Shown here one piece after another: positions 49,072 through 59,735 of a stretch of 59,735 nucleotides of DNA. The position numbers and the translations under genes were made by a program. This DNA is from Chloroflexota bacterium (GTDB lineage: Bacteria > Chloroflexota > Limnocylindria > P2-11E). Within the stretch, counting starts at the first letter, position 1. Every line of letters starts with the position of its first letter. The stretch is taken from assembly GCA_005882765.1 (NCBI GenBank), contig VBDV01000113.1:1-59735 (forward strand), in the 5' to 3' direction. The notes below the pieces were generated by a model. That model saw only the letters and a program-made list of their open reading frames with translations, was not told where the DNA came from and made no database searches.

Positions 49072-50216
49072 GCGCCGTGGCGACCGCGGACGCGCGTGAG
49101 CTTCGCGGGGCGATGGTGGACGCGCTGAAGAAGCGCGGCGTTCGGTTACGTCCGCGGATAGAAGAGGCATTTCGCAGCGTCCCGCGCGAAGCGTTCCTGC
49201 CCGGCGTCGGCCTCGATCGCGTCTATAGCGGCGACGCCATCGTCACGAAGCAGGATGGCGAAGGCCGGCCCATTAGCTCTTCGAGCGAAGTCGGAATCAT
49301 GATCGACATGGCCGAGCTGCTCAATGTCGCGCCCGGTCACCGGATCTTGGAGATTGGCGCGGGAACCGGCTACAACGCCGCCGTTCTTTCGCAGCTTTCC
49401 GGTGACCGAGGCGCCGTCACGACTGTTGATCTCGATCCCGAGATCGCCGCACAAGCACGACAGAACCTCGCGGCCGCGAGCTTTCATCGTGTCGCAGTCA
49501 TTGCGGGTGACGGATGGGCGGGAACCGCCGACAGCATTTCCTTCGATCGAGTCGAGGTGACTGCGGGCGTCTCCGATCTCTCGCCGGCCTGGGTCGCGCA
49601 GCTCGCCGACGGCGGCACAATTGTGTTTCCGTTCGTGCTGCCGGCCGGGATGCAGACGGTCATGGCACTCCGGAAGCAAGGCACCGACCTTGTGAGCACC
49701 GGCCTAACTCCCGGCGCGTTTATGAGACTGCGCGGCCACGGCGGCGCGCCGCCCCGCATACGCACGGTCGGCGTGTTCGATATCGAGCTCAGCGATGAGC
49801 TCGTCGGTGTCGCGAACGAGAAAATCGCCGCGCTGATGCGGGAACCCCCACGGCGTCTGATCGCGCCGCCCCTCCGTTGGGAGGTCATGACCTTACTGGC
49901 GCTGTTCGGGGCCAACATCAGCGTGAGCAAGAGAGGCCGGCTCGGGCTCACGGTCGGCATCCTCGATCCGGCCGGAAGCTTGGCTCTCGTCGATCTGTCG
50001 CGGGATTCGATCGCCGGTCCTTTCAGCCTCGTTGTCTCGTTTGGTTCAGAAGCTGCCGAGTCTCGACTGTTCGACGCGATCGAGCGCCTCCGCACGGCAA
50101 GACTCGAAAATCTGCATGTGCTCGCGAGGCCGACGCGATTGCCCGCCCCCGTCGGCGATGTCGTGGTCCGGCGCGCTGAATTCACGTTCGCTTTCACGAC
50201 GAAGATGTCCGGGTGA
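49068..50216 (+). CDS. Protein-L-isoaspartate methyltransferase-like SAM methyltransferase with long C-terminal extension
   Basis: [54 protein letters not shown]. Confidence 0.85.
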
Positions 50217-51571
50217 AGGGCCTGTTTGGCGGCGAGGCCGTCTACAAGAAGATCTGGGAGCAGCGCAAGCAGCGCAGCCCGCGCCGATCGGCGGGCGCGC
50301 CCGGTCTCAACTGTCTCGTGCTCGGCGGGGGCGGGCGCGAGTACGCCATCGCCTGGCGCCTCGCGAACTGCAACAGCGTGACGACCATCGACGCCGTCCC
50401 GGGGAACGCCGGCCTGTCGCTTTTCACGCGCGTGATCGACCAGTCCCCCGACAACGTGAGCTGGCTCGACGAGCACGTCCTCGCGTCGTTCATCGACCTC
50501 GCGATCGTCGGCACCGACGAGCTCGTCGCCGCGGGGATCGGCGACGCGCTGCGCCGCTCGGGCATCTCCGTGGTCGGACCGTCCAAAGACGCATCGAAGG
50601 TCGAGTGGTCCAAATCGTTCGCCAAGGAGCTCATGGCGGAGGCCGGCATTCCCACCTCGAGGTCCGAGTCGTTCGCCGACGCCGGCGCCGCAAAGGAGGC
50701 CCTCGCGCACTGGCGAGCGCCGGTCGTGGTGAAAGCCGACGGTCTCGCGCTCGGCAAGGGCGTGACCGTCGCGCGGACGCTCGAGGAGGCGGCAGAGGCC
50801 CTCGCGACGCCGCCCGCGAATAGCGGCCGCGTCCTTCTGGAAGAGCTGCTCGAGGGGGAAGAAGCGTCGCTGCAGGCACTCGTCGACGGCGAAGTGGTCG
50901 TCGCGCTCCCGCCGGCGCGCGATCACAAGCGCGCCCACGACGGGGACACCGGGCCGAACACCGGTGGCATGGGTGCGTTCTCGCCGACGGTGGTCTTGCC
51001 CGACGACCAGGCGCAGGCCGTCGCCGAGGAGCTGATCGCGCCGATCGCGGCCGCGCTCGCAAAGCGCGGGACGCCCTATCGCGGTGTCCTCTACGCGGGG
51101 CTCATGAAGACCGCGGCCGGCTGGAGGGTGCTCGAGTACAACGCTCGCTTCGGCGATCCCGAGGCCGAGGTCACGCTCCCGCGGATCGAAGGCGACTTCG
51201 CGAAGCTCCTGTTCGCTCTCGGCGAAGGCCGCCTCGCGGAGTACATCGCCGCGGAGCCGATCCGGTTCAGCAAGCGCCACTACGTCGACGTGGTGCTCTG
51301 CGCCGAGAACTATCCGGGGCCGCCGAAAACCGGCATGCCCATCGTGGGACTCGATCGTCTACCCGAGAACGTGCTTGCATTTCACGGCGCGACCAAACGG
51401 AACGCGACCGGCGACGTCGTCGTGGGTGGCGGCCGCGTCATGCATATCGTTGCGAGCGGCGACAGCATCGCGGAAGCGCGCGATCGGGCGTACGCCGGCG
51501 CGGAGCGCGTGAGCTTCGAGGGCAAGTTCTATCGTTCGGACATCGCGCAGCAGGAGGTGGCGGTCGCTTGA
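50213..51571 (+). CDS. purD: Phosphoribosylamine-glycine ligase
   Basis: CLVLGGGGREYAIAWRL, RDHKRAHDGDTGPNTGGMGAFSP, YNARFGDPEAEVTLPRI. Confidence 0.95.
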   Translation: MKGLFGGEAVYKKIWEQRKQRSPRRSAGAPGLNCLVLGGGGREYAIAWRLANCNSVTTIDAVPGNAGLSLFTRVIDQSPDNVSWLDEHVLASFIDLAIVGTDELVAAGIGDALRRSGISVVGPSKDASKVEWSKSFAKELMAEAGIPTSRSESFADAGAAKEALAHWRAPVVVKADGLALGKGVTVARTLEEAAEALATPPANSGRVLLEELLEGEEASLQALVDGEVVVALPPARDHKRAHDGDTGPNTGGMGAFSPTVVLPDDQAQAVAEELIAPIAAALAKRGTPYRGVLYAGLMKTAAGWRVLEYNARFGDPEAEVTLPRIEGDFAKLLFALGEGRLAEYIAAEPIRFSKRHYVDVVLCAENYPGPPKTGMPIVGLDRLPENVLAFHGATKRNATGDVVVGGGRVMHIVASGDSIAEARDRAYAGAERVSFEGKFYRSDIAQQEVAVA

Positions 51572-52050
51572 CGACATCGAAGGTCGCGATCGTCATGGGC
51601 TCCACGTCCGACCAGACCACGATGCGCTTTGCCTCCGAGACTCTCGAGAGCCTCGGCGTGGACAGCGAGACGCGGGTACTCTCGGCGCATCGCACCCCCG
51701 AGGCGCTCCGTGACTGGGTCGACGGACTCGAAGGACGTGGCGTCCGCGTCGTGATCTGTGGCGCCGGCGGTGCGGCGCACCTCGCCGGTGCGGTCGCGGC
51801 GCTCACCACGCTTCCGGTGATCGGCGTGCCACTCGTCGCGCCGAACGCGATCGCCGGCGGGCTCGACGCGCTCCTCTCGACGGTCCAGATGCCGCGAGGC
51901 ATTCCGGTCGCGACCGTCGCCGTCGGTGACGCGGGTGCGGTGAACGCGGGCATCCTCGCCGCTGAGATACTCGCGACCAGCGACGAGCTGCTGGGCGGCC
52001 GCATCAAAGAGATGCGTAGGCGCAATGCGGCGAAGATCGTGTCGGGATGA
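51568..52050 (+). CDS. purE: N5-CAIR mutase PurE
   Basis: VAIVMGSTSDQTTM, VLSAHRTPEALRDW, GAGGAAHLAGAVAALTTLPVIGVP. Confidence 0.96.
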   Translation: MTTSKVAIVMGSTSDQTTMRFASETLESLGVDSETRVLSAHRTPEALRDWVDGLEGRGVRVVICGAGGAAHLAGAVAALTTLPVIGVPLVAPNAIAGGLDALLSTVQMPRGIPVATVAVGDAGAVNAGILAAEILATSDELLGGRIKEMRRRNAAKIVSG

Positions 52051-52096
52051 TCGTCGCGTTGGATAGTGCCGCGGGTCCTGTCCCGCTTCGCGGTCA

Positions 52097-52206
52097 GGGG
52101 CCCCTGCCCCTTGGGTCGGGGGTTGCCCGCTCGCTACCGGTCGGCTTCATCCGCGAGACCAACCGATCCGCGCGACGCCGCCGGATGGACGCTCGCGGGC
52201 AACCCC
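52097..52206. repeat. GC-rich palindromic element E2 in the purE-purB spacer
   Basis: ggggcccctgcccc at 52097-52110; 12-bp inverted repeat ggggttgcccgc (52119-52130)/gcgggcaacccc (52195-52206). Confidence 0.6.
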
Positions 52207-52237
52207 GCTCCCCCGTGCCACCCGCGGCGCAAATGCA

Positions 52238-53644
52238 ATGACGATCACCAATCGCTTTGACACCGTGTCCCCGCTGGACTCTCGTTTTTATGGCGGCGAT
52301 CCCGCTCTGTACAAGGCGCTCCATCCATATCTTTCGGCGGCGGCCGCTATCAAGTACATGGCGCGGGTCGAAGGAGCTTTGGCGCTTGCACTCGCGGACG
52401 TCGGCATTACCGACAAGAGCGTCGCGAACGCGATCGCCAGCGCAGCCGACCGCATCACCGCGCAGGAGGTGGCGGACGAGGAGTCGCGCACGCGTCACGA
52501 CGTGCGCGCACTTGTGAACGTCATCCGCGCGCAGGTTCCCGACGAGGCCAAGCGCTTCGTCCATCTCGGCGCGACGAGTTACGACATCGTCGACACGGCA
52601 AACGCGCTCCGCTATCGGGAGTGCATCGATCGTGTCGTTGTGCCCACCCTCGCGGTGCTCATCGCCAAGTGCATCTCCATCGCCGAGGCGGAGGCCGACA
52701 CCGCGCAGATCGGCCGCACCCACGGCCGCCACGCCGAGCCCGTGACGTTCGGCTTCGCGATGGCCGAGTACGTCTCGCGCCTCGGCGATCGACTCGAGCA
52801 GCTTCGGCTCTCCGCCAGGCGGCTTCCCGGCAAGCTGTCCGGTGCGGTCGGCGCGTACAACGCGCTCGCGCTCTTAGCCTCGGATCCGCGCGCGCTGGAG
52901 CGCAGGTTCCTGGGGAGCCTGCAGCTCCATCCCGCTCCGGTGTCCACCCAGATCGTGCCGCCCGAGGGCTGGACCGACCTCGCGCACGCCTGCGTGAGCG
53001 CGCTCGGCGTCATGGCCAACCTCGCCGACGACATGCGGCAGCTGCAACGGAGCGAGATCGGCGAGGTGGCGGAGTCGTTCGCCGCGGAGCAGGTGGGATC
53101 GTCGACCATGCCGCACAAGCGCAACCCGGTCTCCTTCGAGAACGTGAAGTCGATCTGGAAGGCGATCGCGCCGCGCATGCTCACGACCTACATGGACCAG
53201 ATCAGCGAGCACCAGCGCGATCTCACGAACTCGGCGTCGCAGCGCTTCCTCGGGGAAATACTCGCGGCCACGACGTACGCCGCGGGCCGCCTCGCGGCGT
53301 CGCTCGACGGCATGCGCGTCGACCGCGAGCGCCTGAAAGCGAACCTCGCGATGTCGCGCGGCGCGATCGCGGCCGAGCCGCTCTACGTCCTCCTCGCGAA
53401 ATACGGTCATCCCGACGCTCACGAGGCGGTGCGCCGGCTCACCCTCGAGGCCGAGCGCGGTTCGCGCTCGCTCCTCGAGGTGGCGACGCTCGATGGCGAT
53501 CTTCGCCCCTATCTTGTGAAGTTCACTCCCGACGAAAGGCGCATCCTCGAGCGTCCCGACGAGTACCGCGGTCTCGCACCGGAGGTCGCGCGCGAGATCG
53601 CGTCGGCCTGGCGCGAGCGGCTCAAGGGCATCCTCCCCGAGTGA
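52238..53644 (+). CDS. purB: Adenylosuccinate lyase
   Basis: SPLDSRFY, THGRHAEPVTFGF, GSSTMPHKRNPV. Confidence 0.96.
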   Translation: MTITNRFDTVSPLDSRFYGGDPALYKALHPYLSAAAAIKYMARVEGALALALADVGITDKSVANAIASAADRITAQEVADEESRTRHDVRALVNVIRAQVPDEAKRFVHLGATSYDIVDTANALRYRECIDRVVVPTLAVLIAKCISIAEAEADTAQIGRTHGRHAEPVTFGFAMAEYVSRLGDRLEQLRLSARRLPGKLSGAVGAYNALALLASDPRALERRFLGSLQLHPAPVSTQIVPPEGWTDLAHACVSALGVMANLADDMRQLQRSEIGEVAESFAAEQVGSSTMPHKRNPVSFENVKSIWKAIAPRMLTTYMDQISEHQRDLTNSASQRFLGEILAATTYAAGRLAASLDGMRVDRERLKANLAMSRGAIAAEPLYVLLAKYGHPDAHEAVRRLTLEAERGSRSLLEVATLDGDLRPYLVKFTPDERRILERPDEYRGLAPEVAREIASAWRERLKGILPE

Positions 53645-54528
53645 GCGTCCTCCTCGAATCGCGGGTCGACGGCGCCACCCTCTTCCGCCGCGGCAAGGTC
53701 CGCGATGTCTACGAGGCAGGCGGCGACAAGCTGGTCATCGTCGCGAGCGATCGGCTCTCGGCATTCGATGCCGTCCTGCCGACGCCGATTCCCGACAAGG
53801 GCCGCGTCCTGACCCAGCTCTCGAACTTCTGGTTCCGCAAGACCGAGAAGATCGTGCCCAACCACCTTGTCTCCACCGACCTTCGCCGTTTCCCCAGAGC
53901 CTTCAAAGACGCGAAGTCGCTCGCCGGGCGGGCGGTGCTCGTGCAGCACTGCGAACGGATCGACATCGAGTGCGTCGCGCGCGGCTACATCTCGGGCTCC
54001 GCCTGGACGGAGTACAAGGCGCTCGGAACGGTCGCAGGCGACGAGCTTCCGAAGGCGCTCATCGAGTCGGAGCAGCTCGCCGAGCCGATCTTCACGCCGG
54101 CCACGAAGGCCGAGTCGGGCCACGACCAGAACATCAGCCGCTCACAGCTCGCGGGCATGATCGGCACCGAGCTCGCCCGGGAGCTCGAACGCCTCACGCT
54201 CGCGCTCTACCGGTTCGCCCACGACTACGCCGCGTCGAAGGGTCTCATCCTCGCCGACACGAAGTTCGAGTTCGGAATGTTCGACGGCCGGATCACGCTC
54301 ATCGACGAGATCCTGACCCCGGACTCGTCCCGCTACTGGGACGCGGAGTCCTACAAGCCCGGAACCTCGCCCGCCTCGTTCGACAAGCAATACGTGCGCG
54401 ACTTCCTCGTGCAAAGCGGCTGGAACAAGGAGCCGCCTGCGCCGGCGCTTCCCCCGGACGTGGTGAAGGGCACGAGCGAGCGGTATCGCGAGGCGTACAA
54501 GCGCATCGTCGGGAAGGCGCTGTCGTGA
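53641..54528 (+). CDS. purC: SAICAR synthase
   Basis: GKVRDVYEAGGDKLVIVASDRLSAFD, ISGSAWTEYKALG, GLILADTKFEFG; GTGA overlap with purB. Confidence 0.96.
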   Translation: MSVLLESRVDGATLFRRGKVRDVYEAGGDKLVIVASDRLSAFDAVLPTPIPDKGRVLTQLSNFWFRKTEKIVPNHLVSTDLRRFPRAFKDAKSLAGRAVLVQHCERIDIECVARGYISGSAWTEYKALGTVAGDELPKALIESEQLAEPIFTPATKAESGHDQNISRSQLAGMIGTELARELERLTLALYRFAHDYAASKGLILADTKFEFGMFDGRITLIDEILTPDSSRYWDAESYKPGTSPASFDKQYVRDFLVQSGWNKEPPAPALPPDVVKGTSERYREAYKRIVGKALS

Positions 54529-54788
54529 GATTCGTCGCGCGCGTCCTCGTGCGGCCGAAGGCCGAGGTCCGCGACCCGCAGGGCGAGGCCGTATTCGCGG
54601 CGCTCCGCTCGCTCGGCCATGACGTCTCCGAGGTGCGTACCGGCAAAGAGATTCTCGTCACCTTCGACGCAGCGGACGAGGAGTCCGCGCGCACCGCCGC
54701 CGAGCGCATGGGGGATCAGCTGCTCGCGAACCCGGTGATCGAGAGCTACGCCGTGGAGGTCGCTCGCGAGGCCGCTAAGGCCCGTTGA
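54525..54788 (+). CDS. purS: FGAM synthase subunit PurS
   Basis: ARVLVRPKAEVRDPQGEAVFAALRSLGHDVSEVRTGKEI; GTGA overlap with purC. Confidence 0.93.
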   Translation: MRFVARVLVRPKAEVRDPQGEAVFAALRSLGHDVSEVRTGKEILVTFDAADEESARTAAERMGDQLLANPVIESYAVEVAREAAKAR

Positions 54789-55383
54789 GTCGCATCTCGG
54801 CGAGCTCGCGCTCGCTGAACACGCTCGGACAGATCGGGTCGCTTCCTCTGCTGGCGCGGCAGTTCATGGGCGAGTACATGAGGCCCACGCTCGAGAAGTC
54901 GGTGGGCGTCTCCGCCCAGTGGCCGTCCTTCGTTCCCGGTCCGAAGCAGCACCAGATGTGGCCCAGCTCGTGGAGGACGGTCGCCATGAGCTCGGGCACG
55001 GCGAGGTGCCGACTCCCATCGACGGTGTGGACGGCGATCTTCCGCGAGGTCACCTTGCCGCCGCTCGAGTGCTGCGTGAGCGCCGAGGTGCCGTTCGTAC
55101 CGTCGAGCTCCACATCGATGTCGCCGTCGGTGCGAAGCGAGAGCTGCCCACGCCCGGCCGTTGCCGTCGCCCAGGCGTTCGGCAGCGCGGCCGCTAGCGC
55201 GTCGCGGAGGTCAGGTAGGCGCGAGCGCTCCTGCGCGTCCCCCTGGTCGCCGACGAAGAGATGGACGCTCAGGAACGCCGCAGAAATGAGTGGCGCGATC
55301 GTGGGAGCGGGGCGCAAGCTGCCGATCAATCCGCATGACGACGTAAAGATGAGCGCGAACGCGAGCGCTGCGGCCTTCACCAC
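54775..55383 (-). CDS. Predicted secreted zinc metalloprotease (HELGH…)
   Basis: Lipobox-like TSSCG; ATVLHELGHIWCCFGPGTKDGH metzincin-type motif; LMYSPM. Confidence 0.75.
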   Translation of the reverse strand: MVKAAALAFALIFTSSCGLIGSLRPAPTIAPLISAAFLSVHLFVGDQGDAQERSRLPDLRDALAAALPNAWATATAGRGQLSLRTDGDIDVELDGTNGTSALTQHSSGGKVTSRKIAVHTVDGSRHLAVPELMATVLHELGHIWCCFGPGTKDGHWAETPTDFSSVGLMYSPMNCRASRGSDPICPSVFSERELAEMRLNGP

Positions 55384-55431: not shown

Positions 55432-56145
55432 ATGACGAGAGTCGCGATTCTTCGGTATCCGGGGACCTGGAGCGAGCGCGATTTCGCGCACGCGCTCTCC
55501 CTCATCGAGGGCGTCGACGCAGAGATCCAGTGGCACGAGAACGCCGATCTGCGCGGCTTCGACGCCGCAATCGTTCCGGGAGGGTTCAGTTACGGCGATT
55601 ACCTGCGGGCCGGTGCGATCGCGAAGCTCTCGCCCGGCACGAAGGAGCTTCGTCGCTTCGCGTCCGAGGGTGGCGCGATCCTCGGGAGCTGCAACGGATT
55701 TCAGATCCTCTGCGAGGCCGGTCTTCTTCCCGGCGCCCTCATCCGCAACTCCGATCTCGCCTATCGCTCCGACTGGGTCCGCATACGCGTGGAGAGTGAA
55801 GAGACCCCGTTCACGAGAGGACTTCGCGGAGCGGTGCTGCGCATGCCGATCGGCAACGGCGAGGGCTGCTGGGTCGCGGACCCCGAGACGCACGCCCGCG
55901 TCGAAGCCGCGGGCCGCGTCGTCGTGCGCTACGTCGACGAGCGCGGCGTCGTGACGGCCGACGCGAATCCGAACGGCTCCCTCGCAAACATCGCCGGGGT
56001 AGCGAATGAAACCGGCAACGTCGTCGGGCTCATGCCGCACCCCGAACGGTGCGTGGAAGCCATCCTTGGGGGTACGGATGGGTATCGGATGCTCGCAAAC
56101 CTGGTCGGCGCACGGCACGGCACGGCGCCTGCCCTATATAGATAG
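55432..56145 (+). CDS. purQ: FGAM synthase subunit PurQ
   Basis: VAILRYPGTWSERDFAHAL, IVPGGFSYGDYLRAGAIA, LGSCNGFQILCEAGLLPG. Confidence 0.96.
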   Translation: MTRVAILRYPGTWSERDFAHALSLIEGVDAEIQWHENADLRGFDAAIVPGGFSYGDYLRAGAIAKLSPGTKELRRFASEGGAILGSCNGFQILCEAGLLPGALIRNSDLAYRSDWVRIRVESEETPFTRGLRGAVLRMPIGNGEGCWVADPETHARVEAAGRVVVRYVDERGVVTADANPNGSLANIAGVANETGNVVGLMPHPERCVEAILGGTDGYRMLANLVGARHGTAPALYR

Positions 56146-56147
56146 CT

Positions 56148-56999
56148 ATGGACCTCTTCGAAAAACAGGCCCAGCTGCAGAGTCTCTTCCAGACCTCGCC
56201 GGTCGACGCGGCCTACGCACAGGGCACCCCCACCGGTAGGCGCATCGCGGGGAAGTACCAGGATCTCGACGTCGCCTTGCTGTTGCTTCAGCGCGTGAAC
56301 GCGAGCGAGTTCTTCGACTACCAGGTGTATTTCGTCAGCGAGCTCTCCAAGACGCTCGAGATCGAAGGCCTCGACGTGGTCATCCTCAACCAGGCTTCGT
56401 TGCTCCAGCGCGCTCAGATCATCCGTAGCTGGAGCCTCCTCTACCAGCGCGATCAGAAGCGGCGGGTGCACTTCGAGGCGCGCTCGGTGATGGAGTACCT
56501 CGAGTTCAAGAAGTACGACGACGTGCAGTCGAAGGCACTCGCCGAGCGAACGCGTGGCGAGCGGTTCGCCATCGACTCCGCGTACGTCCGCGCCCGCATC
56601 GCCCGCCTGCGCGAGTACACGACGCTTCTCGCGGACCTTCGCCAGATCGAGCACACCAAGTTCAAGGCGGACCCGAAGCTCTACGGCCTCGCGCAGTGGC
56701 ATCTTCAGCAGGCGGTCGAGCTACTCCTTGGCACCGGCGCCTACCTCGTAACGGCGCTGGCGCTGCCGAAGCCCGAGGCATACCACGACATCCTTGACGC
56801 GCTCGCGGGCCATGCCGTGATTGAGCGAGCGCTCGCGTACCGGCTCGAGCACCTCGCGAATCTGAGAAACCTCCTCGCATACGACCGCGAGCAGACCGAC
56901 ATCGATGACGTCTACGGCCAGATCCAGACGCGGATTCCGGACCTCGTCGCATTCGCCGATCAGGTCGAGAAATTCGTGGGTACCGGAGACCTCTCCTAG
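56148..56999 (+). CDS. Fused MntA-like nucleotidyltransferase + HepT/DUF86-like HEPN protein
   Basis: N-half: GTPTGRRIAGKYQDLDVALLL … GLDVVILNQASLLQRAQIIRSWSLLYQRDQKRRVHFEARSVMEY; C-half: AYRLEHLANLRNLLAYDREQTDIDDVYGQI. Confidence 0.75.
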   Translation: MDLFEKQAQLQSLFQTSPVDAAYAQGTPTGRRIAGKYQDLDVALLLLQRVNASEFFDYQVYFVSELSKTLEIEGLDVVILNQASLLQRAQIIRSWSLLYQRDQKRRVHFEARSVMEYLEFKKYDDVQSKALAERTRGERFAIDSAYVRARIARLREYTTLLADLRQIEHTKFKADPKLYGLAQWHLQQAVELLLGTGAYLVTALALPKPEAYHDILDALAGHAVIERALAYRLEHLANLRNLLAYDREQTDIDDVYGQIQTRIPDLVAFADQVEKFVGTGDLS

Positions 57000-57037: not shown

Positions 57038-58264
57038 GTGACCAAACCAGATGTCGTCGTGATCGGCGCCGGGCAGGCCGGTCTCTCCGTGAGCCACGAG
57101 CTGTCGGCCGCCGGCGTGGACCATGTTGTCCTGGAGCGCGGACGCGTCGGCGAGACCTGGCGTGGACGCTGGGACACCTTCTGCCTCGTCACGCCGAACT
57201 GGACGGTTCGACTTCCGGGCGGCGCATATGCGGGCGACGATCCGGACGGATTCATGCCGCGCGACGCGATCGTCGCGCACCTCGAGTCATACGCGCGCTC
57301 GTTCAAGGCGCCTGTCCGCGAGCGCGTAGCCGTGACCGCGCTCCGTCCGATCGCCGACGGATTCGTCGTCAACACGTCCGAAGGCGAGCTGCGTCCAAAA
57401 ACGGTCGTCGTCACGACTGGCGCGTACCAGAAGGCACATCGTCCTGCGGCCGCCGCGTCCTTGCCGCGCGGCCTGTACGCGATCGACGCCGAACGCTACC
57501 GCAACGCTGAGGCACTTCCGGCCGGAAAGATTCTGATCGTCGGCAGCGGACAGACAGGGTGCCAGATTGCCGATGAGCTCCACGAGGCAGGACGAGACGT
57601 GTTCCTCGCCTGCGGGCGCGCCCCGTGGATCACCCGTCGGCTCGGTGGCCGTGACTTTCTGGCGTGGCTGTCCGAGACGCCATTCTTCGACTTCGCCCTT
57701 CGCGATCTCCCGTCACCGGAGGCGCGCCTCATCGCCAACCCCCAGGCGACCGGACACGGCGGCGGCCGTGACCTCCACTACCGCACCCTGCAGCGGCTCG
57801 GTGTGAACCTTGTAGGGCACTTCGTCGGCGCCGACTCGACGCGGCTCCAGTTCGCGGACGATCTCGCGGAATCCGTCGCGTTCGGCGACGCGCGCTATGT
57901 CGATCTATGCCTGCTCATTCGGAGGACCTGCGAGAGCCGCGGCGTGGCGCCGCCGGATCTGCCGCCACCGAGCGCGTTCACCGCGGCCGCAGCCGAGAGC
58001 GTTGATCTGGCGGGATTTGGAGCGATCATCTTCACGTCTGGTTTTCGTCCGGATTACCGCTCTTGGATCCACGCCGACGATGCCTTCGACGCTCTTGGTT
58101 TCCCGATCACGCAGGACGGGCAAAGCACCGTCGTACGAGGACTCTACTTTTGCGGGGTTCACTTTCTGCGCAAGCGGAAGTCGTCGATCTTCCTGGGCAT
58201 CGGCGAGGACGCGGCGATCGTCGCGCGTTCGATCGCCGGCGCACCCGCGGTGACGACCGCTTAG
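57038..58264 (+). CDS. Flavin-containing monooxygenase-like oxidoreductase
   Basis: VVVIGAGQAGLSVSHEL, GRVGETWRGRWDTFCLVTPNW, ILIVGSGQTGCQIADEL. Confidence 0.9.
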   Translation: MTKPDVVVIGAGQAGLSVSHELSAAGVDHVVLERGRVGETWRGRWDTFCLVTPNWTVRLPGGAYAGDDPDGFMPRDAIVAHLESYARSFKAPVRERVAVTALRPIADGFVVNTSEGELRPKTVVVTTGAYQKAHRPAAAASLPRGLYAIDAERYRNAEALPAGKILIVGSGQTGCQIADELHEAGRDVFLACGRAPWITRRLGGRDFLAWLSETPFFDFALRDLPSPEARLIANPQATGHGGGRDLHYRTLQRLGVNLVGHFVGADSTRLQFADDLAESVAFGDARYVDLCLLIRRTCESRGVAPPDLPPPSAFTAAAAESVDLAGFGAIIFTSGFRPDYRSWIHADDAFDALGFPITQDGQSTVVRGLYFCGVHFLRKRKSSIFLGIGEDAAIVARSIAGAPAVTTA

Positions 58265-58333: not shown

Positions 58334-59735
58334 GTGAGTGCGTCCCCAGCCCTGGGGACGACGAAAACGGCGCAGCCTAACCAGATTCCACAAGACGCGG
58401 GCCTCACCGAATACGAGGCTGCCCTCGTGCGCGAGCAGATCGGCCGCGAACCGAACGGGCTCGAGTGGGCGATGTTCGGGGCCATGTGGAGCGAGCACTG
58501 CGCATACAAGCACTCCAAGAAGCTCTTGCGCACGCTGCCTTCACGTGGAGCGTCAGTTGCCGTCGGTCCCGGCGAGAACGCCGGAGCCGTCGATCTCGGC
58601 GGCGGTCTTCTCTGTGTCTTCAAAGTCGAGAGCCACAACCATCCGTCCGCCATCGAACCGTTCCAGGGAGCTGCCACCGGTGTCGGCGGGATCCTGCGCG
58701 ACGTCTTCGCGATGGGCGCGCGCCCGACCGCGGTGCTGAACGCGCTCTTCTTCGGCGATCCGGCCGATCCCGCCGTCCGCCGCACGATCTCGGGCGTGAC
58801 CGGCGGCATCTCCTTTTACGGAAACTGCGTCGGCATCCCCGACGTCGCCGGGCACATCTCGTTCGAGCCGTGCTACGCCGATAACCCGCTGGTCAACGCG
58901 ATGTGTGTCGGTTTCGCACGCTCCGAAGATCTCCGCAAGGCGAGCGGCGCGCGACCGGGCAGCGCGGTGTACCTGGTCGGTAGCGACACCGGCCGCGACG
59001 GGATCGCTGGCGCGTCGCTGCTCGCGTCGTTCGAGCTCGGCTCCGGGTCGGATGCCAAGCGTCCGTCGGTCCAGGTGGGTAATCCGTTCCTTGAAAAGCT
59101 GCTGCTCGAGGCCACGCTCGAATTGGTCGACGCCGACGCGATCGAGGCGGTGCAAGACCTCGGCGCCGCCGGACTGACGTGCGCCGTCAGCGAAGTCGCG
59201 GCAAAAAGCAGGGTCGGCATGCGGATCGACGTCGCGCTCGTGCCGCGCCGAGCGCAGGCCATGACTCCATACGAAGTGATGCTCAGTGAGTCGCAGGAGC
59301 GAATGCTCGTCATCGCGCGCCCCGGCCGCGAGCGCGATGTCGAGCGGATCTTCAAGAAATGGGAATTGCATGGCAGCCGCATCGGCGAAGTCACCGCCGA
59401 GCCAACCCTTCTGATCTACGACGGCGATAATCCCGTTGCGTCGCTCCCGCCGCGATCGCTAGCAGACGATGCGCCTGAGTACGACGTCGCATCGTTGGCT
59501 GACGCGTTCGCGGCTTCGGGCGAGGGGTCCGTCGTCCTCGGGGGGCCCTCCCTCGACCACGTAGGGTCTCGGGTCCCCCTGCGGGCGCCGGCCCCCTCGC
59601 CCGAACCGCAAGCGATGACCGCCAAGATCGGCCTCGAGCTTCTCGATCTGCTCGCGTCGCCGGCGATCGCGAGTCGGCGTGTGATCTATCGGACGTACGA
59701 CCAGATGGTCGGCACGGACACCGTCGTCGGTCCGG
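58334..59735 (+). CDS. purL: FGAM synthase subunit PurL (3' truncated by window end)
   Basis: EWAMFGAMWSEHCAYKHSKKLLR, FKVESHNHPSAIEPFQGAATGVGGILRDVFAMGARP; absent from the ORF track because it runs off the window. Confidence 0.96.
   Translation, partial: MSASPALGTTKTAQPNQIPQDAGLTEYEAALVREQIGREPNGLEWAMFGAMWSEHCAYKHSKKLLRTLPSRGASVAVGPGENAGAVDLGGGLLCVFKVESHNHPSAIEPFQGAATGVGGILRDVFAMGARPTAVLNALFFGDPADPAVRRTISGVTGGISFYGNCVGIPDVAGHISFEPCYADNPLVNAMCVGFARSEDLRKASGARPGSAVYLVGSDTGRDGIAGASLLASFELGSGSDAKRPSVQVGNPFLEKLLLEATLELVDADAIEAVQDLGAAGLTCAVSEVAAKSRVGMRIDVALVPRRAQAMTPYEVMLSESQERMLVIARPGRERDVERIFKKWELHGSRIGEVTAEPTLLIYDGDNPVASLPPRSLADDAPEYDVASLADAFAASGEGSVVLGGPSLDHVGSRVPLRAPAPSPEPQAMTAKIGLELLDLLASPAIASRRVIYRTYDQMVGTDTVVGP
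59515..59605. repeat. Palindromic element E3 inside purL
   Basis: 13-bp perfect inverted repeat ttcgggcgagggg (59515-59527)/cccctcgcccgaa (59593-59605) with internal nested complementarity. Confidence 0.65.

Follow-up and report, generated by a model that had tools for sequence, protein, structure and literature searches.

The purine operon of a Chloroflexota bacterium contains, between the genes for two subunits of the same enzyme, an open reading frame that resembles both members of a toxin-antitoxin pair. This locus raises the question of whether such a gene still encodes a toxin, encodes a regulatory nucleotidyltransferase, or has acquired another function. Among the predicted toxin-antitoxin modules of prokaryotes, HEPN/MNT is described as the most abundant (PMC7641770). 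The gene, hereafter MH, is located on the plus strand at positions 56148..56999 of the window, i.e., of the whole stretch of 59,735 nucleotides that was analysed. It consists of a single uninterrupted frame of 852 bases, from ATG to TAG, encoding 283 amino acids, and has orthologs in two Chloroflexota lineages.

According to the initial annotation, MH joins an MntA-like N-terminal half and a HepT-like C-terminal half on one chain. Pfam, NCBIfam, profile-profile comparison and the structure model of the C-half agree with this description. The N-half (residues 1-138; 56148..56561, plus strand) is matched by Pfam Polbeta (PF18765, 27.5 bits for the N-half alone vs. a cut-off of 26.9) and by NCBIfam MntA (44.9 bits, E=8e-12, under the cut-off of 60), while hhalign aligns the N-half profile of the MH family with that of two-gene MntA proteins over 134 columns (residues 8-145, E=2.4e-19). 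The C-half (residues 139-283; 56562..56996, plus strand) corresponds to a HepT-like HEPN domain devoid of the catalytic His, as judged from Pfam (PF01934 at 155-272, E=2.2e-16), from NCBIfam HepT, whose cut-off of 60 is narrowly passed with 60.6 bits, and from the structure model. We set the extents of the MntA-like nucleotidyltransferase (NTase) and HepT-like HEPN domains at residues 8-145 and 139-275, respectively. Both NCBIfam models match 21/21 diverse members of the MH family. The AlphaFold model of the C-half, with block means mostly >80, superimposes on solved HepT/HEPN structures and on YutE with a target TM-score of 0.84-0.92, so that this half has the HEPN fold of the type VII toxin. 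The N-half was modelled poorly from 20 similar sequences (pLDDT <50); hence, its fold assignment rests on the profiles. PADLOC gave no defence-system match, and the genome of the window contains no second PF01934 match.

In the type VII system, HepT is characterized by the motif RX4HXY, in which Y104 is the site of AMPylation, and MntA by the motif GSX10DXD; D39, D41 and D71 of the Shewanella oneidensis MntA have a functional role (PMC7641770). Both motifs are degenerate in MH, as had been noticed initially. The NTase active-site loop (residues 24-43; 56217..56276, plus strand) reads GT-X11-DLD, with G26 and T27 followed by D39, L and D41; the third aspartate, D76 (56373..56375, plus strand), is invariant and is taken as the equivalent of D71. 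The HEPN motif (56865..56888, plus strand) reads R240-N-L-L-A-Y245-D-R247, so that RX4HXY has become RX4[Y/F]X[R/K]: the catalytic His aligns with Y245 and, a loss that had escaped the first reading, the AMPylated Tyr is missing too, since HepT Y104 aligns with R247. The disappearance of RX4HXY (RNLLA[Y/F]D[R/K] in the family) makes toxicity unlikely. Y245 was considered as a new AMPylation acceptor; this is unlikely, because two members carry Phe at that position. The sole His kept in both lineages is H213 (56784..56786, plus strand), found in 26/26 and 23/24 members, respectively.

MH was detected in 27 of the genomes of 61 relatives, all 27 within the order of the window. There it occurs in 27/29 genomes (the remaining two are 71% and 66% complete), while it is found in 0/32 genomes of the rest of the class. 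A second Chloroflexota family (f21) has MH in 26/29 genomes, one copy each, one of them broken near the 3′ end, and in a sample of the phylum three other families were found to have orthologs, with about 38-45% identity. The search covered Chloroflexota, the comparative data derive from metagenome-assembled genomes (MAGs), and a peptide-pattern scan of genome contigs gave Chloroflexi records only, the named ones being Chloroflexi MAGs. In a tree of both halves, all these fusions form one clade (bootstrap 100) apart from the two-gene pairs. The window and its orthologs have a single frame instead of two separate genes, and the occurrence of the same fusion in over 50 genomes (27/29 plus 26/29) indicates that it is neither a chance product nor an assembly artefact, the latter being excluded. 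Toxin-antitoxin systems typically have a patchy, mobile distribution. MH is instead nearly always single-copy in both lineages and stays at a fixed locus; no phage-borne relatives were found in viral contigs, and the plasmids gave two weak partial matches only.

The two lineages differ as to which half is kept. In all members of the window's order covering the site, the His and the AMPylation Tyr are replaced (H to Y/F and Y to R/K): R240 is present in 26/26, position 245 is Y in 23 and F in 2, and position 247 is R in 24 and K in 1. As for the NTase half, D76 is found in 25/25, but E replaces D39 in 4 members and S or G replaces D41 in 3; at position 27, T, S, M, L and R all occur, and two residues are deleted in one member. 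Overall, G[ST] together with D39, D41 and D76 is retained in 14/25 pur-linked orthologs and the full motif is lost in 11/25. Ranked by entropy, with the relatives treated as independent, loop 24-43 comes first of 264 in variability among the 20-residue windows in the order, whereas segment 236-250, with the HEPN motif, belongs to the most conserved stretches: 7 of 269 windows have an equal or lower value. The NTase lesions are spread over about five branches (D41G; D41S; D39E with GM/AL; A26; the 2-residue deletion) of a tree in which several inner branches are weakly supported. In the pur-linked lineage NTase residues were lost while the gene was kept in place, which suggests that selection does not act there to preserve nucleotidyl transfer; the constraint on the HEPN segment suggests binding as the function. 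In many orthologs the N-half is probably a pseudo-NTase. The window's own genus, on the other hand, has D39, D41, D76 and G[ST] intact; given the three aspartates, catalysis by the NTase half may persist in this species. The second lineage shows the opposite pattern: D39, D41, D76 and G26 are found in 24/24 members, with a variable position 27, while the HEPN motif drifts, position 245 being H, R, Y, N, S or T. Both lineages keep H213 and R240. From these alignments, it appears that one ancestral fusion decayed at one end in the first lineage and at the other end in the second.

Loss of residues does not mean that the gene is decaying. In the 14 genomes that have all seven operon genes compared, MH ranks first in mean identity (76.0%) and last in both dN (0.179, under purB, purC and purQ) and median dN/dS, 0.25 as compared to 0.26-0.37 for the other six in a simple Nei-Gojobori count. 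MH is therefore under strong purifying selection and is not a decaying gene.

MH lies in the purine operon right after purQ, as initially annotated, although the gap is 2 nt and not 3 nt. The pur genes are named here from sequence resemblance and operon order. The genes purD-purE-purB-purC-purS are found upstream in the same operon (50213..54788, plus strand). They are followed by purQ (55432..56145, plus strand), which we take to encode the glutaminase subunit of FGAM synthetase from its resemblance to PurQ and from the operon order; its stop is 2 nt before MH. Downstream of MH, purL (58334..59735, plus strand), for the large subunit of FGAM synthetase, runs off the contig end. Two other genes occupy the neighbouring junctions of the window. 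A flavin-dependent oxidoreductase (Pyr_redox_3 flavoprotein; 57038-58264, plus strand) lies between MH and purL, where a 99%-identical relative has a different ORF (L021). Between purS and purQ, in antisense orientation, there is a lipoprotein-like ORF of 202 aa with a HELGHIW zinc-protease-like motif (54775-55383, minus strand), which has no Pfam match and is found in the same place in 6 relatives.

Across the loci of the order, the position of the fusion next to pur genes is confirmed. purQ and MH are -4 to +9 nt apart in 18/19 relatives measured, the 19th containing an assembly gap, and purQ directly precedes MH at every locus showing both genes with the exception of one (G011), where a Fic/DOC-family gene (L086:1901-3130) is found between them. 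Fic/DOC is another fold known for AMPylation. At one further locus (L042) purL follows MH and there is no purQ within 2.9 kb upstream. In 22/22 loci of the order with enough sequence purL is downstream of MH, in 18 of them within about 130 bases, and at several loci purF comes after purL. Insertions are tolerated at the purS-purQ and MH-purL junctions, while the purQ-MH junction is kept tighter. In class relatives without MH the order purC-purS-purQ-purL is retained, and in some of them a zinc-ribbon gene precedes purL; MH is therefore an additional gene, placed between those for two FGAM synthetase subunits. One such zinc-ribbon protein (L078:2610-3605) lies between purQ and purL in a relative from the class that has no MH.

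The second lineage has a different neighbourhood. No purQ or purL was found near MH orthologs at the 14 loci checked, so that the ancestral role need not concern purines; of 27 loci, 21 have a TPR protein as neighbour, 20 a GntR regulator and 14 a MoaD/MoaE-like gene. These orthologs (L054-L064, L125-L137) have a conserved place of their own, facing the TPR protein and the GntR regulator, often with the MoaD/MoaE-like gene upstream.

We are inclined, by a narrow balance, to the explanation that MH is a domesticated, non-toxic MntA-HepT module that binds via its remodelled HEPN cleft and is co-produced with FGAM synthetase. It would derive from an ancestral antitoxin-toxin pair resembling type VII that was merged into one polypeptide and lost the HEPN RNase residues, and in the window's lineage the fused gene would have settled between purQ and purL. 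MH would act as a HepT-type dimer by binding and not by catalysis, the composite HEPN cleft (R240, N241, Y/F245, D246, R/K247, E248 and perhaps H213) being the putative ligand site and the vestigial NTase serving as scaffold or nucleotide-binding lobe. Made along with PurS, PurQ and PurL, it might help or regulate FGAM synthetase or the operon mRNA, as its position would suggest. The parts of this explanation are not equally firm. That MH is a domesticated protein and not a toxin is very likely, and that its role in the order is conserved and non-catalytic is fairly probable; a role in purine synthesis, to which gene position points, is conceivable but slightly doubtful. More speculative, and rather improbable, is that MH represents a new non-catalytic accessory or regulatory PurSQL subunit with the HEPN cleft as ligand sensor, the sister lineage having kept the NTase for another task.

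Other explanations place the function elsewhere. A functional fused type VII toxin-antitoxin, self-AMPylated and using an alternative active site such as H213 with R240, has in its favour the conservation of these two residues in both lineages and the reports of HEPNs with alternative histidines and of some motif-less HEPNs that were toxic in a screen (PMC3710099); nevertheless, it is highly improbable. The His and the modified Tyr are absent, the gene is near-universal, single-copy, slowly evolving and fixed in place, and the disappearance of the NTase motif in many members should free a toxin; the initial view that toxicity is unlikely is thus borne out. That view went together with the proposal of a regulatory nucleotidyl transfer linked to purine/AMP supply, which is not supported. 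An active NTase half might AMPylate a target such as PurQ or PurL, the HEPN half serving for substrate binding or regulation as in GlnE or kanamycin nucleotidyltransferase. The intact residues in the window's genus, the invariant DxD of the second lineage and the reading of fused MNT-HEPN proteins as modifying enzymes (PMC3710099) agree with such an activity, but the loop is the most variable part of the pur-linked proteins, the full motif survives in little more than half of them with the gene still in place, and in an archaeal MntA, AMPylation was abolished by changing GS to AT (PMC7641770). Moreover, NTase conservation and pur linkage fall in different lineages, the invariant DxD being found where no pur genes are nearby. 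We consider this possibility unlikely.

Operon position can also reflect convenient expression only. MH could be a housekeeping protein unrelated to purines and retained in the operon for steady expression, as the prevalence of the gene in the second lineage among TPR, GntR and MoaD/MoaE-like neighbours would suggest. However, the purQ-MH junction is tighter than the insertion-prone ones on either side, and the HEPN segment is fixed in its remodelled form specifically in the pur-linked lineage, which leaves this possibility somewhat unlikely. As a special case of the binding model, MH might be an RNA-binding regulator of the operon, for which an inactive HEPN within a metabolic operon has a precedent in MtlR (PMC3710099) and the fixed basic residues R240 and R247 would be suitable; a search for RNA families in the window, on the contrary, gave two tRNAs and no other match, and such a regulator seems quite unlikely.

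Comparison with known systems supports the domesticated module and delimits what is new. With the type VII HepT/MntA pair (S. oneidensis SO_3166/SO_3165; PDB 5yep, 6m6u, 7bxo) MH shares both domains, the MNT-before-HEPN order and the fold of the C-half, but it differs in being one polypeptide in which RX4HXY is lost and GSX10DXD altered or lost, and in being a core single-copy gene of a biosynthetic operon. Bacillus subtilis YutE (PDB 1ylm), a DUF86 protein, matches the C-half in both sequence and fold, and its aligned motif, RKTLVQQY, is also without the His; unlike MH, it is a stand-alone HEPN and has the motif Tyr. MtlR is not known to have an NTase half. It is an inactive, motif-poor HEPN of a metabolic operon, likened to MH by description and not by sequence, and represses the mannitol operon without DNA binding (PMC3710099). 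The PurF of Methanospirillum hungatei carries a C-terminal HEPN domain (PMC3261824), again a HEPN-type domain attached to purine synthesis; unlike MH, this domain is fused to PurF and is known from one species, and no MNT half has been described with it.

Proteins that join MNT to an inactive HEPN, including DUF86-MNT, GlnE and kanamycin nucleotidyltransferase, were described in 2013; the fused HEPNs are typically without RNase residues, and domestication of toxin-antitoxin modules was proposed from their domain architecture (PMC3710099). MH, an MNT domain fused to an RNase-dead HEPN, belongs to this kind, but in its order the NTase motif decays as well, so that the reading as modifying enzyme does not carry over. 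The literature searched contained neither the MH family nor the purQ-purL site nor the reciprocal decay. Decay at opposite ends in two lineages makes domestication testable, and the enzyme whose subunits are encoded on either side of MH is a candidate partner. There is also a caution for annotation: NCBIfam, with a score just over its cut-off, would annotate MH as an RNase toxin of type VII, a label that very probably misstates its function.

Finally, the genome of another Chloroflexota bacterium (G244) contains three fused MntA-HepT ORFs of ~290 aa with the same architecture as MH (L068:6337-7119, L117:1370-2245 and L118:1255-2121, all on the minus strand). Given their position outside the MH clade (bootstrap 100 for the MH family), they are probably the result of separate fusion events. 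The ORF of L068 retains both catalytic motifs (GS-X10-DVD and RNRLVHLY) and is therefore possibly an active toxin-antitoxin in one chain.
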